Shown here: positions 55,094-63,384 of the stretch, piece by piece | Layout: each line of letters begins with the position of its first letter | Numbering within the stretch: position 1 is the first letter of the stretch | Program-made: the position numbers and the translations under genes | Source of the DNA: Anaerocolumna cellulosilytica | Lineage (GTDB): Bacteria; Bacillota; Clostridia; Lachnospirales; Lachnospiraceae | DNA: 64,000 bases | Reading direction: 5' to 3' | Assembly (NCBI RefSeq): GCF_014218335.1 | Contig: NZ_AP023367.1 | Coordinates: 449,001-513,000 of the forward strand | The notes under the pieces: generated by a model | The model's database searches: none | What the model was told of the DNA's origin: nothing | The model's input: only the letters and a program-made list of their open reading frames with translations

Positions 55094-56629
55094 GTGGATA
55101 AGGAAATCGTAATTGTCCTGGATTTTGGCGGCCAATATAACCAGTTGATAGCCAGAAGAGTAAGGGAATGCAACGTATACTGTGAGGTATTACCTTATGA
55201 TACAAGTCTAGAAAGAATCAAAGAAATCAATCCCAAGGGAATTATATTTACCGGAGGACCAGCCAGCGTATATGCAGAGGATGCACCAGCCTGTGATAAA
55301 GGAATCTTTGAATTAGGCATTCCAGTACTTGGAATCTGCTATGGTTCACAGTTAATGACCTATTCCTTAGGAGGAAAAGTGTCCAAAGCGCCTCTTAGAG
55401 AATATGGTAAAACTGAAATAACCGTTAAGAACGAATCAAAGCTGTTTGCAGACGTGAAAGATACATCTATCTGCTGGATGAGCCATACGGATTATATTGA
55501 GCAATTACCAGAAGGGTTTACTGTATCCGCCTATTCTGCATCCTGTCCGGTAGCGGCTCTTGAAAAACCTTCCCAGAACCTATATGGTGTACAGTTTCAC
55601 CCGGAAGTAGTTCATACCCAGGAAGGAACAAAGATGCTTCGTAACTTCCTATACAATGTCTGTGAATGTTCCGGTGACTGGAAGATGGATTCCTTTACTG
55701 AACAATCCATTAAAGCATTGAGAGAAAAAATAGGTGATAAAAAAGTGTTATGTGCCTTATCCGGCGGTGTAGATTCCTCTGTTGCAGCAGTTATGATAAG
55801 CAAAGCGGTTGGAAAACAACTTACCTGTATCTTCGTAGACCATGGTCTTCTTCGTAAAGATGAGGGTGATGAAGTTGAAAAGATATTCACCGAGCAGTTT
55901 GACGTTAACTTTGTTCGTGTCAATGCGCAGCAAAGATTCTATGATAAATTAGCAGGCGTAGCAGAACCGGAAGAAAAGAGAAAGATAATCGGCGAAGAGT
56001 TTATCCGTGTTTTTGAAGAAGAAGCCAAGAAAATCGGAGTCGTTGACTATTTAGTACAGGGAACCATATATCCTGACGTAATTGAAAGCGGTCTTGGTAA
56101 ATCTGCAGTCATTAAGAGCCACCATAATGTAGGCGGACTTCCCGATTATGTAGATTTTAAAGAAATCATTGAACCACTTCGTGACTTATTCAAGGATGAA
56201 GTACGTAGAGCCGGATTAGAAATTGGAATTCCTGAAAAGTTAGTATTCAGACAGCCATTCCCAGGACCTGGTCTTGCCATCCGTATCATTGGTGAAGTAA
56301 CCGAAGAGAAAGTTAAGATACTACAGGAAGCAGATTATATCTACCGTGAAGAAATTGCGAATGCAGGTCTTGACAGAAGCATCGGACAGTATTTTGCTGC
56401 ACTTACCAACATGCGTTCTGTAGGCGTAATGGGTGATGAAAGAACCTATGACTATGCTGTAGCATTACGTGCGGTAACAACTACCGACTTTATGACAGCA
56501 GAAGCAGCAGACCTGCCTTGGGAAGTACTTGGTAAGGTATCCTCAAGGATAGTAAATGAAGTTAAACATATTAATAGAGTACTCTATGATTGTACTGGGA
56601 AACCACCGGCAACGATAGAGTTTGAGTAG
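55094..56629 (+). CDS. guaA: GMP synthase (glutamine-hydrolysing)
   Basis: The 511-residue enzyme has the class I glutamine amidotransferase domain (nucleophile Cys in GICYGSQ, QFHPE), the PP-loop SGGVDSSV and the C-terminal dimerisation domain ([20 protein letters not shown]). It turns XMP into GMP. The start is GTG 55094 behind TTAGGAGGAATTACCA. The 3' end of guaA is a known attachment site for integrative elements in Firmicutes, which fits the element to its right. Confidence 0.97.
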
Positions 56630-56680: not shown

Positions 56681-56710
56681 TGATGTGTGATACCTTTTTG
56701 ATACCTAGAT

Positions 56711-57595
56711 TTATTCTGGAAATAAGTCGAGTAGCTCATTTTCTAAACCGTGTGCTAGTTTTACTAAATCGACAGATTCACAAATTTTTTCTCTTTCGGT
56801 TTGTTTTTCGGAAAGCAAAGAGTTTATAGTTGAATCATTTATTATGGAAACTATGGAATGTTTATATTTTACTTGTGCTTCATTTTCGTAAAAAGCCATT
56901 CTTGTTATAGGATTTCGTTTAGCGATTTGCGCAAGGGATTCATCATGGGTAGCAAGAGACTGCAATGATAAGCAATTATACATATTGGATAACATTGCCA
57001 TTTCAGTAGGGAGATTCCATAAATGAAATAAATCCCATGCCATACCCTCTATCTTTCTAAGTTTTTCTTTTGCCAATGGCTGTATCTTTGCAAAAAACCT
57101 TGTTACACATTCTTCGGATCTATCAAAATACCAATAAGCTAAAATGATACCGTTTTCAAAGTAAACACCAAGTTGTTTGTTTGTAAAATCAATAAGTTGA
57201 GCCAGTTTATTTTTTGAACTTTCTTTCGTTGAAAAAGCAATTATAAACATTTTAATTAATAAGCAATAAATACTTTTAGCTCTTTTTTCGTTTTCTTTTT
57301 GAGTTAAACGCATTTCTTTCATTTGATTCCAAGCAGCATCAGAATATGTATAATCGCTGATATCAGATTGAAAAGAAAGAGTATGTAAATCATTCAATGT
57401 AATTCTATCAAAGGTGAAGAACCTTAAAAGACTTAAATACGCTTTTTCTTCGTTTTTCATCCCTAACGAATTAAGACTATCTTCTAAAAGATAAGGTGAA
57501 GAATTTAACCTTAGGTTATTTTGCTTAATATGAATTAGTAGATTAAAAAAGTCTTGATCAATTATTTGATCGCTTTGAAATTGTTTCTGTAGCAT
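56711..57595 (-). CDS. Unknown island protein, 294 aa
   Basis: The protein is helical, cytoplasmic and without recognised motifs (KMFIIAFSTKESSKNKLAQL; ILAYWYFDRSEECVTRFF). ATG 57595 has no ribosome binding site, and protein-like codons continue upstream of it in frame (INLDSNIIS). The preceding 97-aa frame stops only 17 nt earlier in another frame. The two could be one gene of about 400 codons broken by a frameshift. It is the last gene of the leftward island operon, ending next to guaA. Confidence 0.6.
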   Translation of the reverse strand: MLQKQFQSDQIIDQDFFNLLIHIKQNNLRLNSSPYLLEDSLNSLGMKNEEKAYLSLLRFFTFDRITLNDLHTLSFQSDISDYTYSDAAWNQMKEMRLTQKENEKRAKSIYCLLIKMFIIAFSTKESSKNKLAQLIDFTNKQLGVYFENGIILAYWYFDRSEECVTRFFAKIQPLAKEKLRKIEGMAWDLFHLWNLPTEMAMLSNMYNCLSLQSLATHDESLAQIAKRNPITRMAFYENEAQVKYKHSIVSIINDSTINSLLSEKQTEREKICESVDLVKLAHGLENELLDLFPE

Positions 57596-57612
57596 AGATA
57601 TAATATTTGAAT

Positions 57613-57906
57613 CTAAATTGATTGTGGTGCATGTCTAATTAAAAGTTCTTTTTTGGGTGAATTCCACATTTTTGAATCTAATAATATTGTTTTATTATAG
57701 TCACCTAAATTAACAATTGAATACTTGTTAATTTGAATTTCATTGTTTACATTTTCAAAATCTGTATTTCCATTGCAATCAAAAAGAATTACGTTAATTT
57801 TGCTGATAAAAGGTGAGAATAAATATTTCTCATATACACTAATTGGTTTTTTTGTGTAGAGTATAGAGCCGATAATTTCTTTAACCTCTGCAGGCCATTG
57901 ATACAT
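57613..57906 (-). CDS. Unknown island protein, 97 aa, or 5' part of a split gene
   Basis: ATG 57906 follows a strong GAGGAGGT. The frame begins MYQWPAEVKEIIGSILYTKK and ends LLIRHAPQSI. It lies 45 bp behind the DUF6236-like gene, so it is in the same operon. No domain is recognised. See the next entry for a possible fusion. Confidence 0.6.
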   Translation of the reverse strand: MYQWPAEVKEIIGSILYTKKPISVYEKYLFSPFISKINVILFDCNGNTDFENVNNEIQINKYSIVNLGDYNKTILLDSKMWNSPKKELLIRHAPQSI

Positions 57907-57951
57907 GTATATACCTCCTCTTAAATGTCAAGCAAATAGTAATATATACGC

Positions 57952-58977
57952 TTATGATAAATTATTAATCTGTGCTAAGTATTTTCTTGTTAGATGCTTT
58001 TCATTTATATTCTCAATTGAGTGAGGAAGATTATTTATAAAGTTAGGGATAGTTCGGCTGTCGATGTAAGCACCAGCAGCAACGTTTAAGAAAGATGCAC
58101 TATCTAAATTTCCATTCAATAATTGATTTATTCCATAAGTTGTTAAAATTATGGAGCCCAACATTTCAAAACTATTTTCGCAGATTCTAATAAAGTCACT
58201 TTTATAGCTTAATAAGTCAGTAAGTGAATATCCTGGTGTATTATTTTCTTTAGCAACTATTAGATTTTTAATTTCGCTTACATAAGCATAACGAAGCTGA
58301 TTAAAGTCATTAGAAGATCTTAGTTCAATAATAGTATTAAGTGGTATTTGTGAAATGTTTTTTGGTAAATTAATTTCAATGTTACTCTGAGCATATTGTA
58401 ATTCTAAATGATTTCGCTTTGCTATTTTTTTATTGCGATTTAAAAGTAAATTGTTATATTTAGAAGAATCAGTAATGGAATCCATTTCTTGTAATATCGA
58501 TATCCTCTCGGCTAAAAAGCTCATATATAGATATGCTAAATCTTCGTTAATCTTAATTCCAAAATCACATTCAGAAGCAATGCCTTCTAAAATACAGAAA
58601 TCGTGAAAGTCTTGTGAGAATTTTCCGTTATACAGAGTGTAGTTTTGGGTTGAGCGATTCCGCCACTTATCTCGTATTGTGTAACTATTTGTATTATGGT
58701 AGGGATGGCCAAATCGTCCACCATATCTATGTGGATATTGCAGATACTGTTCGAACTCCTCTATTGCCTTTTGAGATGCCCATGCTCCTTCATCATAATC
58801 AGGCTGATATGGACGTATCAAATTAGTTTCATCAATTATTTGAATTGTGTGTGAACTTAAATAAGTCTCTTTATCATATGGAATCATTGGGATAATAGGT
58901 CTTATTTCATCTAAATATAATAATGCAAATTTTAACCAATTGATATCCTGTGCTTCAAATCCTGGGTAATATAACAT
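57952..58977 (-). CDS. DUF6236-like protein
   Basis: I choose ATG 58977 with AAGGAGGAAT ahead; the longer frame to 59064 runs back into the pseudogene. The 341-residue protein starts LYYPGFEAQDINWLKFALLY, then LDEIRPIIPMIPYDK, the hallmark start of the DUF6236 family (function unknown). The rest is helical with no membrane segment. DUF6236 genes are usually found in accessory islands. It is the third gene of the island operon. Confidence 0.7.
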   Translation of the reverse strand: MLYYPGFEAQDINWLKFALLYLDEIRPIIPMIPYDKETYLSSHTIQIIDETNLIRPYQPDYDEGAWASQKAIEEFEQYLQYPHRYGGRFGHPYHNTNSYTIRDKWRNRSTQNYTLYNGKFSQDFHDFCILEGIASECDFGIKINEDLAYLYMSFLAERISILQEMDSITDSSKYNNLLLNRNKKIAKRNHLELQYAQSNIEINLPKNISQIPLNTIIELRSSNDFNQLRYAYVSEIKNLIVAKENNTPGYSLTDLLSYKSDFIRICENSFEMLGSIILTTYGINQLLNGNLDSASFLNVAAGAYIDSRTIPNFINNLPHSIENINEKHLTRKYLAQINNLS

Positions 58978-59017
58978 AAAATTCCTCCTTAGTATGTTAT
59001 TTATAAATCTACTTACT

Positions 59018-59355
59018 CTAATTATGCCATTTTTTGTGCGATACAAACTTTCCGCAATCATCACGAGTATCTGGCCAATTCAATTTCCATTCCAAATACT
59101 CATTTTCAGTTATCTCCTTATTCGCCAGCTCCTGCTTTCGAATCAACCATTCACTCATGAATTCATCAACCAATCCATAATTAAACCACATACTAACTGG
59201 CAGTTCATCTGGCCAGTAATCCTCATTGTCATCATATTAGGCTAGCACTTTTGTAGTGGTTTTTTTATTGCTACGGATAAGAGAGAAAAGATTGATTGCA
59301 CCACGGTTATCTTCATCTAGCCAGAAGAAAGTCTGCATAATATCTTCTGCACTGC
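59018..59355 (-). pseudogene. Truncated copy of the XRE regulator's C-terminal part
   Basis: This stretch is a close DNA copy of 60586-60893 (C-terminal two thirds of the XRE gene). It lacks the helix-turn-helix part and carries CAA-to-TAA at the position matching AVAQYDD, so it is dead. The reading ends TRDDCGKFVSHKKWHN at 59018. It shows that an XRE gene once stood before the DUF6236 gene too, or that recombination copied this part. Confidence 0.8.
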
Positions 59356-59445
59356 TAGTGTGTAATAGATTATATTTTCCATTAATTAAGTATACTCCTT
59401 TCGATTCTCCAATCCATAATCTGGATAAGATGGTTTGAGAATTGA

Positions 59446-60528
59446 TTAGAATAATTCTGATCTATACGTACTATCACCTAACGTGAAGAACAGAAAGCAT
59501 TTGTCATAATAATTTTTATATTCATTAATCTTATATTGTACAGATGTAAGTTCGGTAATCATATTATTGTAAAATTGCTGGCCAATAGGGGTTACTGAAT
59601 CATTCTCCATTGAATATAAAGCATCATTCCCAATCTTGAAGAAAATTTCTTGAATTACATATCTACCACGTTCTATTCCATAAAAACTATTTTTGGCTTT
59701 GTCAAGATTCTTAATAACCTGTGTGAGAATGGGCGTTGGATCTGTTATTAATTTAAGATACTCATGCATGTTAATTTTATTTGAATTGTTAGCAGGTATT
59801 TCGAAATAAAAATCATTTAGCTGTATAATTACATTCAATAATTCAATTGTATGTAGATCTACATTTGAGGAAGAGCAATCTTCTGTAGAATCACTAGGTG
59901 AGGATGATTCTGTAGCAGAATTAAATGGTAATCCGGACTTAAATATGATTTCAATTGGAATTCGGTTTCTTGAAAAAGTAAATTTATCTAGATTGGATTT
60001 ATTATCGTACACATAATTAATGAATTCTGATATAAAAAGAGAGATTTCACTTGTATTACTATTTGAATTATCTATATAATCTTCAATATCAAAATTTTCT
60101 TTATCGAATTCGCATATATAACCATTTTTAATACAGATTGTATAATTTTTTCGTATAAAATCTGCATGTTCTTCGTAGGTATTAAATATTTCCGATATTA
60201 GGAACACTATGCGCTCAAGGGCTTTACTGCTACCTATTTCTTTATTGGATTCAAAACCAAAAGGAATTCTTTTGATTTCTAAATATATTTCTTCATTTAG
60301 TTTATTCATCAGTCGTATATCAGCAGTACAATGACTGGAATTATTAAGAATATACGGTTTTCTATTCGGATTCATCTTTAATAATAATTTTTGAACTTCT
60401 ATAGCGTCTTCTTTGTCAGGGCATCCAGCAAATTCATAGTTATCATTTAATAGCAGTTCAAATATATTTTTAGTACTTGAATAAGTACATTCTTTTGTTG
60501 TGCAGTTGCAACAATAATTAAAATACAT
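59446..60528 (-). CDS. Unknown 361-aa island protein, possible PD-(D/E)XK nuclease
   Basis: I choose ATG 60528 with GGAGG at good spacing. The N-terminus has a cysteine cluster (CCNCTTKEC) that could bind zinc. Residues around 75-95 read CTADIRLMNKLNEEIYLEIK, that is Asp, a turn, then Glu-x-Lys on a strand, as in PD-(D/E)XK nucleases. The middle is Ser-rich and acidic (about 205-225). No family is recognised, and the nuclease reading is weak. It stands right behind the XRE gene and is probably co-transcribed. Confidence 0.65.
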   Translation of the reverse strand: MYFNYCCNCTTKECTYSSTKNIFELLLNDNYEFAGCPDKEDAIEVQKLLLKMNPNRKPYILNNSSHCTADIRLMNKLNEEIYLEIKRIPFGFESNKEIGSSKALERIVFLISEIFNTYEEHADFIRKNYTICIKNGYICEFDKENFDIEDYIDNSNSNTSEISLFISEFINYVYDNKSNLDKFTFSRNRIPIEIIFKSGLPFNSATESSSPSDSTEDCSSSNVDLHTIELLNVIIQLNDFYFEIPANNSNKINMHEYLKLITDPTPILTQVIKNLDKAKNSFYGIERGRYVIQEIFFKIGNDALYSMENDSVTPIGQQFYNNMITELTSVQYKINEYKNYYDKCFLFFTLGDSTYRSELF

Positions 60529-60562
60529 AACAGCCTCCATTCTCGTTACATAATAATAATTT

Positions 60563-61105
60563 TCAGTTATATTTTGTTGTATTTTTGCAATCATCACAAG
60601 TATCCGGCCAATTCAGTTTCCATTCCAAATACTCATTTTCTGTAATCTCTTTCTTTGCCAGCTCCTGCTTTCGAATCATCCATTCCCTCATGAATTCATC
60701 AACCAATCCATAATTAAACCACATACCAACTGGCGGTTCATCTGGCCAGTAATCATCATTGTCATCATATTGGGCTACCGCCTTTGTGGTGGCTTTTTCT
60801 TTTTTATTACTACGGATAAGAGAAAAAAGATTGATTGCACCACGGTTATCTTCGTCCAGCCAGAAGAAAGTCTGCATAATATCTTCTGCGCTTCCTGGAA
60901 CTTCGCTGACAAAGTTAAGGGGATTGATATCCATAGCCTTTGCCATATCTATAAGCATGTCTTTTTGAGGAACTCTGTAATCGCATTCGTATTGTGCAAT
61001 ACGATTTGCAGCGCCTTTTTCTTCTAAACCAACAGCAACTCCAAGTTCCTGCTGGGTCATTTTTCTGAGTTTTCGTACAAATTTTATTTTTTTACCAATG
61101 GTCAT
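60563..61105 (-). CDS. XRE-family regulator of the island
   Basis: Residues 5-62 are an HTH_3 domain (IKFVRKLRKMTQQELGVAVG, NRIAQYECDYRVPQ). The C-terminal part (EFMREWMIRKQELAKKEITE, EYLEWKLNWP) recurs in clostridial XRE proteins with this layout. ATG 61105 follows AAAGGAGGCAG. It is the first gene of the leftward operon and probably binds the three TTCGC palindromes upstream, controlling both directions. Confidence 0.85.
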   Translation of the reverse strand: MTIGKKIKFVRKLRKMTQQELGVAVGLEEKGAANRIAQYECDYRVPQKDMLIDMAKAMDINPLNFVSEVPGSAEDIMQTFFWLDEDNRGAINLFSLIRSNKKEKATTKAVAQYDDNDDYWPDEPPVGMWFNYGLVDEFMREWMIRKQELAKKEITENEYLEWKLNWPDTCDDCKNTTKYN

Positions 61106-61193: not shown

Positions 61194-61279
61194 TTCGCCT
61201 AGAGGCGAAAATAATATTGACATTCGCTATGAGGCGAATTATAATGGGTATCACAATAGGGCATTCGCTATGAAGCGAA
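61194..61279. promoter_or_regulatory. Three 16-bp palindromic operators
   Basis: TTCGCCTAGAGGCGAA (61194-61209), TTCGCTATGAGGCGAA (61223-61238) and TTCGCTATGAAGCGAA (61264-61279) share TTCGC-6-GCGAA. The second fills the spacer of the rightward promoter. Two half sites (near 61321 and 61408) may be chance. Confidence 0.85.
61217..61245 (+). promoter_or_regulatory. Consensus sigma-A promoter, rightward
   Basis: TTGACA (61217-61222), exactly 17 bp, TATAAT (61240-61245): a perfect consensus promoter whose spacer is an operator. It should drive the leader, xis and integrase genes when the repressor leaves. Confidence 0.85.
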
Positions 61280-61589: not shown

Positions 61590-61690
61590 ACCTGATCTTG
61601 CTGCAATAGTCCAAACAATAGTTGAGCGGCCGGGGGGTTCTCAAGGTCCCTAGTTAGATTTTGAAATTTTTATACAAAGGAGGTGGACGG

Positions 61691-61879
61691 ATGGAAGGAG
61701 CAATTTATATTACAGCAGCTGAGATGGCTGAAATGCTTGGCATTTCAAAACCATATGCGTATAAGCTCATCAAACAGATGAATGAAGAGCTTGACGCAAA
61801 AGGTTTTATTACCATTCCTGGCAAAGTAGCAATTAAGTATTTTGAAGAGAAGTTTTACGGAGTAACAGTAACAGCGTAA
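61691..61879 (+). CDS. xis: Excisionase-like HTH protein
   Basis: I choose ATG 61691 behind AAAGGAGGTGG. The 62-residue protein has a MerR/excisionase-type winged helix (YITAAEMAEMLGISKPYAYK, LIKQMNEEL; GKVAIKYFEEKFYG). It lies 15 bp before the integrase gene. It would direct the integrase to excise the element. Confidence 0.85.
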   Translation: MEGAIYITAAEMAEMLGISKPYAYKLIKQMNEELDAKGFITIPGKVAIKYFEEKFYGVTVTA

Positions 61880-61894
61880 CGAAAGGAGAAATTG

Positions 61895-62989
61895 ATGGCA
61901 GCATATAAAGATGAGGAGCGAGGCACATGGTATGTCTCGTTCCATTATTACGATTGGACTGGCAAGAACAAGCGCAAATTGAAGCGTGGTTTCAAAACCA
62001 GAAGAGAGGCATTAGAGTGGGAGCAGCATTTTCGCATGAAGGAAGAGGCTAATTTGGAAATGACTTTTGATGACTTTGTCGAAGCCTATACAAGAGACAT
62101 GAAACCCAAATTAAAAGAAAATACTTGGAACACGAAAGAAGCGGTTATTAACAGCAAGATACTCCCTTATTTTAAGGATAAGAAAATGAAGGATATCAAG
62201 CCGACAGATATTATTCAGTGGCAGAACCAAATGATTAAGCTTAAGAATCCGCAAGGAGCATTATTTAAGCCTACTTACCTGAAAACAATTCAATCGGAGA
62301 TAAGCGCATTATTTAATCATGCGGTACGTTTTTATGAATTGAAAGAGAATCCGGTAGTGAAGGCAGGACCATTGGGAAAAGGGAAAGCAGACGAAATGCT
62401 CTTTTGGACAAAAGAAGAGTATTTGAAATTTATCGAGCAGGTAAAGGACAAGCCAGTTTCCTATTACGCATTTCAGATTCTATATTGGTGTGGTCTTCGT
62501 ATGGGGGAACTATTAGCACTAACACCAGCAGATATTGATGTCCCAAAGAGTATGATTCATATCACAAAATCTTATCAGCGAATCAGGGGTAAGGATGTTA
62601 TTACAGATCCAAAGACTCCAAAGAGTAAACGAGATGTAGTGATTCCTGATTTCTTGCGTGATGAACTACAGGACTATATGAGTCGGTTATATGGAATTAC
62701 CAAGAAAGATAGGTTATTTCATATTACAAAAACATATTTGCACCATGAAATGGATCGTGGGGCTAAGAAAGCAGGAGTGCAGAGAATCAGAATCCATGAC
62801 CTGCGCCACAGCCACGTATCCCTTTTAATCAGCATGGGATTTACAGCCGTAGCCATTGGTTCAAGAGTAGGTCATGAAAGTTCAGATATAACTTTTCGCT
62901 ATGCCCATATGTTTCCAAGTGAGCAAAAACAGATGGCAACCATGTTAAATGATGCATTTGTGATTACAGATAAGGAAGGTGATGAATAA
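61895..62989 (+). CDS. int: Tyrosine recombinase/integrase
   Basis: The protein has an arm-binding N-terminal domain (GTWYVSFHYYDWTGKNKR), a core-binding SAM-like domain (about 55-155) and the catalytic domain with Arg202 (CGLRMGELLAL), His301 and Arg304 (HDLRHSH), His in GHESS and nucleophile Tyr336 (RYAHM). AAAGGAG precedes ATG 61895. Its stop overlaps the next ATG (TAATG). It is of the Tn916/ICE class and should act at the guaA end or another site outside the window. Confidence 0.95.
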   Translation: MAAYKDEERGTWYVSFHYYDWTGKNKRKLKRGFKTRREALEWEQHFRMKEEANLEMTFDDFVEAYTRDMKPKLKENTWNTKEAVINSKILPYFKDKKMKDIKPTDIIQWQNQMIKLKNPQGALFKPTYLKTIQSEISALFNHAVRFYELKENPVVKAGPLGKGKADEMLFWTKEEYLKFIEQVKDKPVSYYAFQILYWCGLRMGELLALTPADIDVPKSMIHITKSYQRIRGKDVITDPKTPKSKRDVVIPDFLRDELQDYMSRLYGITKKDRLFHITKTYLHHEMDRGAKKAGVQRIRIHDLRHSHVSLLISMGFTAVAIGSRVGHESSDITFRYAHMFPSEQKQMATMLNDAFVITDKEGDE

Positions 62990-63384
62990 TGCCGGGAGTT
63001 CATAAGAATCCAACGATTAGTTTTCGTATTTCCGATTATGAAAGAAGAGAAATTGAAGCGAAGATTAAGGCAAGTGGAATGCAGAAAAAAGATTATTTTG
63101 TTCGTTCCTGTATTTATAACCATGTGTGTGTTGTTGGTAAGAAAGAGACGGTATATGTGTTGGTGGAGGAGTTGCAGAAAATGCAACAAAATCTTTATCA
63201 GTTGAATGAACAGATTTTATCAGAAGATATTCAGATAACCAGTGAAGAAATGCAGGAATTACAGCTTGATTACGAATATATGCTAAAAGCTATTTTGTGG
63301 ATGCTTGAAGGTGCACGATATTTGTGGGAAGGAAAAAGTACAGCAGGGAAGGAGAGTGATAATTGTGGAGGAAGCAAAAGTTGA
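62989..63384 (+). CDS. MobC-like mobilization (relaxosome) protein
   Basis: The 131-residue protein begins with a ribbon-helix-helix (PTISFRISDYERREIEAKIK, ASGMQKKDYFVRSCI), as in MobC-type relaxosome proteins, followed by a coiled helix. It overlaps integrase by 1 nt and the next gene by 20 nt. No relaxase lies inside the window; it is expected to the right. Confidence 0.75.
   Translation: MPGVHKNPTISFRISDYERREIEAKIKASGMQKKDYFVRSCIYNHVCVVGKKETVYVLVEELQKMQQNLYQLNEQILSEDIQITSEEMQELQLDYEYMLKAILWMLEGARYLWEGKSTAGKESDNCGGSKS

Follow-up and report, generated by a model that had tools for sequence, protein, structure and literature searches.

A guaA-side cargo slot and its two probable loads in an integrated element of Anaerocolumna cellulosilytica

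The window analysed here is a stretch of 64,000 nucleotides of Anaerocolumna cellulosilytica (positions 449001-513000 of a single-contig genome of 5.43 Mb), which contains the left part of a probably mobilizable element integrated beside guaA; positions beyond 64,000 are given as window-equivalent. Five minus-strand frames lie between guaA (55094-56629, plus strand) and the xis, int and nikA-like genes (61661-63384, plus strand). We consider it probable that this region serves as the cargo slot at the left end of an element integrated at guaA, in which an XRE gene is the element's own regulator and the genes behind it are exchangeable loads, many of them anti-phage, two such loads being present here. 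An earlier sequence-only reading had located the same five frames and had described them as one operon in the cargo slot of a mobilizable element, a place often used for anti-phage systems. It was right on the kind of place, which is supported by related elements and by a PsyrTA pair at the opposite end of this element, and wrong on the operon: the frames are the XRE gene and two loads, with an XRE remnant between them. The slot and its walls, the remnant, the palindromes, the invariant motifs and the variety of the loads can be read from the sequences, and what we infer is control by XRE, the order in which the loads came, nuclease activity and a role in defence.

Cargo slot between XRE and guaA

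Genome contigs were searched with a profile of the C-terminal domain of XRE, which gave 325 relatives, and the best 80 of 325 were kept as related loci (L063-L142). Calls for guaA at these loci were made using tblastn, and 19 of the 80 loci, without guaA in the covered stretch, were left out of the slot count. In the 61 others guaA lies beyond XRE; 47 of these slots are empty (no room for cargo) and 14 contain cargo. A similar integrase is encoded at most 5 kb away in 67 of the 80 related loci. The slot is delimited by the left-end direct repeat beside guaA, which is missing in L133, and by the 3' end of the XRE gene at about codon 173. Distances from the last cargo stop to the end repeat were measured in 12 cargo loci; they are 3-66 nt in 10 of these, and 100 nt and 184 nt in the remaining two. 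In the window the distance is 5 nt. The main cargo frame runs in the direction of XRE in all 13 loci listed.

Thirteen cargo slots (17 proteins), consisting of 12 of the 14 guaA cargo loci (L107 and L125 excluded) and of L048, were scanned with PADLOC using a threshold of 1e-5 or better. Matches were obtained for 10 proteins, in 9 of the 13 slots, and the loads thus recognised are diverse (Table 1). The sequence-only reading had proposed a search for a conserved neighbourhood, and the outcome is divided: the slot and XRE are conserved, and none of the four cargo proteins of the window has a match in the 80 related loci. In the literature searched, with preprints and most subscription papers outside its reach, no description of a guaA-side XRE cargo slot was found, nor any paper on DUF6236, nor anything on mobilizable elements with anti-phage cargo in Lachnospiraceae.

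Table 1. Coordinates of features in the window, and matches in the cargo slots of related loci
Feature	Position	Strand	Description
Left attachment core GAGTTTGAGTAG	56618-56629	+	Last 12 bases of guaA; near-copy at right end
Left-end direct repeat TGATACC..TGATACC	56688-56705	+	Outer wall of cargo slot; 60 of 61 guaA loci
Load 2, 294-aa frame	56711-57595	-	Probably larger piece of frame-shifted gene
Load 2, 97-aa frame	57613-57906	-	Probably 5' piece of broken gene; fits the N-terminal part (about 100 aa) of relatives
Load 2, first gene	57952-58977	-	341 aa; divergent DUF6236 relative; 36% identical full-length relative in L061
XRE pseudogene remnant	59054-59353	-	Codons 72-173, one stop, no 5' part; about 90% nucleotide identity
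Load 1	59446-60528	-	360 aa; putative PD-(D/E)xK nuclease with Cys cluster; relatives L158, L145
XRE regulator gene	60563-61105	-	180 aa; helix-turn-helix (HTH) matches; 325 relatives by C-terminal domain
Three palindromes TTCGC-N6-GCGAA	61193-61280	.	Between XRE and xis, within 88 bp; likely XRE operators
Excisionase-like HTH protein	61661-61879	+	HTH_17 2.2e-5, below curated cut-off
Tyrosine integrase	61892-62989	+	Phage_integrase 1.9e-16, Phage_int_SAM_3 6.5e-21
NikA-like mobilization protein	62989-63384	+	NikA-like 6e-11
L063 slot			PDC-M05A 2.4e-7; MNT-type nucleotidyltransferase, Polbeta 6.7e-6
L064 slot			PDC-S29 6.4e-15; EcsC in Pfam
L065 slot			ThsA/SIR2 6.3e-12
L066 slot			DzbB 1.3e-12
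L132 slot			OLD-like ATPase; NsnB best, 1.2e-28
L133 slot			ThsA/SIR2 1e-26
L138 slot			AAA; HEC-01A 3.7e-40
L139 slot			CBASS cyclase 3.8e-107 and 2TM (Cap15) effector 7e-75
L141 slot			DRT UG31 1.6e-89 (defence reverse transcriptase)

XRE remnant and the two loads

A direct repeat of about 300 bp inside the five-frame region, overlooked in the sequence-only reading, corresponds to a second, incomplete copy of XRE placed between the 360-aa and 341-aa genes. As this remnant separates the second and third genes, two cargo loads are distinguished. That the five genes evolved together as a single operon under an XRE regulator of their own is accordingly very improbable: their shared orientation, short gaps and ribosome binding sites (good before four frames and not before the last, 294-aa frame, as had been read from the sequence) would fit an operon, but the remnant interrupts it, XRE relatives are found with different cargo or with no cargo, and the four cargo proteins gave no hit in the 80 related loci. 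The single shared promoter that had been proposed is unsupported, promoter-like matches in the region being at chance (25 found, 26.4 expected); no terminator-like site is listed on the minus strand below 61194. The five-frame region is single-copy in the genome, where its sole other DNA match covers 42 bases at the terminator hairpin.

The tail of the remnant (GKF...KKW) is like the XRE tails of L063 and L064, and the homology of the window XRE to both stops at codon 173, with an unusual tail beyond. Identity to L063 is 502/518 nt for the intact XRE and 280/308 nt for the remnant. Since the intact gene is thus closer to L063 than the remnant is, a tandem duplication of one XRE gene is less likely, and two different XRE alleles are likelier; pseudogene drift is a possible source of the difference, and tandem integration followed by deletion is a possible origin of the remnant. 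The simplest history would be that the 341-aa load lay directly behind one XRE, and that a different allele of XRE, bringing the 360-aa load, later took up the place in front of it. C-terminal XRE pieces without a full gene are found elsewhere (L053:6057-7572, L054:5575-5913, L056:8288-8485), and one such piece, in the genus Anaerocolumna itself, lies ahead of a 446-aa protein adjoining guaA. Remnants truncated at the 5' end in this way may be left repeatedly when cargo is exchanged.

The load 1 protein, whose ATG at 60528 follows GGAGG, is 360 aa long (361 aa had been given before), and none of the libraries Pfam, PADLOC, NCBIfam and PHROGs gives it a significant match. Two relatives were retained: L158 (361 aa, IMG/VR contig, 48% identity), with Dam-like methylase and integrase-like genes nearby by eye, and L145 (307 aa, genome of the same class, 33% identity), flanked by two copies of an integrase-like gene. 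The Cys cluster and the D...E-x-K pattern pointed out in the sequence-only reading are real, C8, C11, C16, GCPDK, HCTAD and E86-x-K88 being kept in all three sequences (numbering of the 362-residue row), and D72, E86 and K88 (D-x13-E-x-K), the presumed catalytic residues, being likewise invariant. D-x13-E-x-K is an ordinary spacing for PD-(D/E)xK nucleases. The protein shares this pattern with those enzymes, and differs in having no family or PDB match, the PDB sequence search giving nothing better than 0.5. The protein is most likely a metal-dependent nuclease that would attack invading DNA or abort phage growth.

With the 360-aa protein as query, 250 family genomes gave only the protein itself, and among 341 class genomes five gave matches, namely the protein itself, the convincing L145 and three short weak ones; L147 and L148, short weak matches like L146, were judged to be chance on inspection. 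Searches of plasmid and phage proteins with the 360-aa and 341-aa proteins gave no match, and single-protein viral scans with the 360-, 341- and 294-aa proteins gave no relative. At L149:2070-10923, a relative of the 360-aa protein lies between two near-identical 311-aa tyrosine-recombinase-like genes, with unknown proteins around, in an arrangement like a small cassette array.

The first gene of load 2 encodes the 341-aa protein, which had been called DUF6236-like. This holds through its relatives only, since PF19749 matches two of the three members of its alignment, both of them relatives (best 5e-13), and the window protein itself matches no Pfam family at E up to 10 and does not reach the curated cut-off of PF19749. 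The likeness to DUF6236 consists in an N-terminal LYYP...LLY.DEI..I.P pattern and in the length, both of which the window protein has in common with the relatives L004/L061, L005/L062 and L157. The 341-aa protein is present in 3 of 250 family genomes (itself and two others), and the DUF6236 model in 2 of 250 and 3 of 259 genomes, L154 being judged chance by eye; a scan of viral sequences with the family alignment gave no relative. Neighbourhoods were inspected for five relatives (L061, L160, L062, L161, L162). In L061 a beta-type protein (PD-Lambda-2_C, weak, 9.4e-5) is encoded some 1 kb from the relative, which also has cll nearby (7.9e-24), and in L160 it adjoins AbiV (4.1e-5), near HEC-05 (6.6e-13). 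In L062, L161 and L162 no recognised defence gene was seen by eye, and the one L162 protein scanned gave no match.

The 97-aa and 294-aa frames are likely the two pieces of a single gene interrupted by a frame change. The frame of the 294-aa protein stays open upstream of its ATG, alignments to three of four relatives begin upstream of this ATG, at residue 97-98 of the relative (97 in Legionella), and the 97-aa frame lies directly upstream; the similarity of the 97-aa frame itself to the relatives is not above that of shuffles. The relatives are single frames of 418-420 aa from five plasmid records, including the Legionella query (418 aa). Alignment scores of the 294-aa protein exceed shuffle maxima for Legionella (182 against 65), Pantoea (98 against 63) and Enterobacter (89 against 52), and equal the maximum for the Klebsiella protein (69), which is itself a relative of the Legionella one (24.5% identity, 4e-18). 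The Klebsiella protein lies immediately upstream of avs3a on a plasmid (L150:1066-6145); because its score only equals the shuffle maximum, this avs3a neighbour is to be read as a relative of a relative. The Enterobacter plasmid relative is about 1 kb from a DprA gene, and the Legionella and Pantoea neighbourhoods (four plasmid neighbourhoods were read in all) contain no named defence gene.

Among 391 genomes the 294-aa protein was found only in its own. It has two CARF-type PADLOC matches at 0.001, and when PDB sequences were searched with the 97/294-aa family, nothing came up but cytochrome c peroxidase, at chance level (best 0.21). Two features that we take to be PIN-like, an initial Asp-Ser/Thr-Asn/Gln and a late Thr-x-Asp, are conserved in all five rows that extend over them; the PIN reading was rejected, as neither the 294-aa piece nor any of four full-length relatives had a Pfam match at 0.1. 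Load 2 most likely is, or was, a separate defence or toxin-antitoxin (TA)-like pair.

XRE regulator and integrated element

The profile of Csp231I C (3lfp), a restriction-modification controller, matches the N-terminal HTH of XRE (1.1e-10, positions 5-98), which the two proteins have in common, but the match stops short of the conserved C-terminal domain of the element's XRE family. The palindromes upstream of XRE are likely its operators. The lowest of the three has one mismatch to a longer ATTCGC form, and a perfect -35/-10 pair directed towards xis (61217-61245) overlaps the second. Three palindromes occur at the equivalent place in L063 and L064, the region has diverged in L065, and one further palindrome lies near the right end of the element. 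XRE relatives are also found in loci with differing recombinases (L041, L042, L044-L047, L049 and L051, serine recombinases by eye), and in six of these (L041, L042, L044-L047) two or three palindromes are located at or before the XRE gene. XRE may act as a repressor in both directions. At L049:5722-8443, where the recombinase is another one, an OLD-like ATPase and a UvrD-like helicase, Gabija-like by eye, adjoin XRE in opposite orientation.

The element measures about 19.8 kb and is integrated at the 3' end of guaA by a site-specific integrase, with an attachment core at both ends. Its size follows from the recurrence, at the right end in the same chromosome, of a like repeat (window-equivalent 76249-76266) and of the core GAGTTTGAATGA, a near-copy of GAGTTTGAGTAG (window-equivalent 76370-76381, L058:8370-8381). 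The right core was recognised by eye only, scripted searches for a right-end core copy (attR) having found nothing. At the left end a hairpin adjoins guaA beside the repeat. Further genes recognised by eye encode a RepA-like ATPase, a ParM-like protein and a relaxase. The right end (window-equivalent 69645-76219, L058:1645-8219) carries the known anti-phage pair PsyrT (9.4e-274) and PsyrA (1.9e-103), and after it a gene for a protein of 1084 aa that has an SLFN_AlbA_2 domain. The relaxase-like gene (window-equivalent 67084-69134, L163) is in two frames (141 and 542 aa), against one of 683 aa in L063; its identity to L063 is 99% over residues 1-136 and 88% over residues 137-683, a mosaic-like shift at the frame break.

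What we take to be the N-terminal motif of tetracycline ribosomal-protection proteins is present in 15 of the 80 related loci, and the guaA slot is empty in 9 of these 15. ATE-1 of Trueperella pyogenes is described, beside other elements at this site, as an integrative and mobilizable element (IME) of 10.8 kb with a tyrosine recombinase, inserted at the 3' end of guaA and carrying tet(W) and TA genes (PMC5704250). By this tabulated description, recombinase type and insertion site are as in the window element, which differs in carrying PsyrTA and two unrecognised loads.

What the loads may be

Several results weigh against the reading of the region as a slot for largely anti-phage loads. None of the four cargo proteins matches a PADLOC defence model convincingly; the 360-, 341- and 97-aa proteins gave no match, and the 294-aa protein gave only its CARF-type ones. 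Four of the 13 scanned slots (L131, L134, L135, L048) have no PADLOC match at the threshold, sub-threshold matches being HEPN in Pfam for L134 (1.6e-4) and mad8 for L048 (5.4e-4); L107 and L125 are unscanned. The control for the slot scan, made up of 24 proteins encoded on the chromosome beyond guaA, yields PADLOC matches too, with at least two UvrA and at least one SNF2-type helicase among the matches listed (tallied as members per family for 25 of 60 families, so that protein counts are lower bounds). Structure predictions were too poor for comparison with structure libraries (mean pLDDT, predicted local distance difference test, of 37 for the 360-aa protein with 2 sequences, and of 44 for the 341-aa protein with 6 sequences). 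With up to two mismatches allowed, the window palindrome count of three is reached by 29 of 100 shuffles, and the palindromes are regarded as operators because they are clustered and conserved, not because of this count. The relaxase is broken and load 2 probably so, and the element may be decaying.

It is quite unlikely that the loads are decaying passengers without present function. In its favour are the XRE remnant, which is a pseudogene, the probable frame shift in the 97/294-aa gene, the split of the relaxase match to L063 over two frames, and the lack of any relative of the 360-aa protein, other than itself, in 250 family genomes. Against it, the 360- and 341-aa genes have intact frames behind good ribosome binding sites, the motifs of the 360-aa protein are preserved without exception in three sequences whose identity falls as low as 33%, and the frame changes (97/294-aa gene, relaxase) could be assembly errors. 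The slot contains one intact unrecognised protein (360 aa), one intact divergent DUF6236 relative (341 aa) and a third gene that is probably broken.

The slot matches and PsyrTA place the loads among defence genes, with the caveat on specificity from the control. A match to an ATPase should carry no weight by itself. The CBASS pair, the reverse transcriptase and the SIR2 proteins belong to another kind, and they are not known as classical addiction modules. This bears on a further explanation, which we hold to be unlikely, that the loads are TA-like addiction modules that stabilise the element and do not defend the host. It would fit the MNT-type nucleotidyltransferase in L063, the HEPN match in L134 and, in PMC5704250, the TA genes listed on guaA IMEs, for which addiction roles are proposed. 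On the other hand, the 47 empty slots among 61 imply that no load is required for maintenance, and no recognisable antitoxin accompanies the 360-aa protein. Our best inference is that the unrecognised loads described here are candidate anti-phage systems.

In the cargo slot so understood, XRE would act at the three palindromes between its own gene and xis/int, and the loads would be readable from the XRE transcript, because they lie directly behind XRE in the same orientation. Different elements would bring different loads into the slot, many of them anti-phage, and two would have piled up here, the DUF6236-like gene with the probably broken gene and, arriving behind another XRE allele, the 360-aa gene. 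More tentatively, and with some doubt, the regulator could be a docking point at which defence cassettes are exchanged by recombination within XRE, expression from the promoter of the regulator itself being kept low by repression and becoming high at entry into a new cell or at excision; both loads would then be unrecognised defence systems, and the 360-aa protein would found a Cys-cluster family of PD-(D/E)xK nucleases.

In P2 and P4 defence hotspots, variable defence genes lie between conserved boundary genes of mobile elements. A like organisation is reported for hotspots and islands of E. coli (PMC10121019) and Pseudomonas (PMC12629846), from which the present slot differs in that its inner boundary is the coding end of the element's regulator gene and in that it belongs to a probable IME found in Lachnospiraceae and their relatives.

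The analysis nominates the nuclease-like 360-aa family, for which the four family libraries searched gave no significant match. If the proposed reading is true, the switching of mobile-element defence genes by the element's own regulator would become testable, and anti-phage candidates in gut Clostridia would be findable in the few kb between this XRE and guaA, where the unit of function is defined in advance because the slot is sharply bounded.

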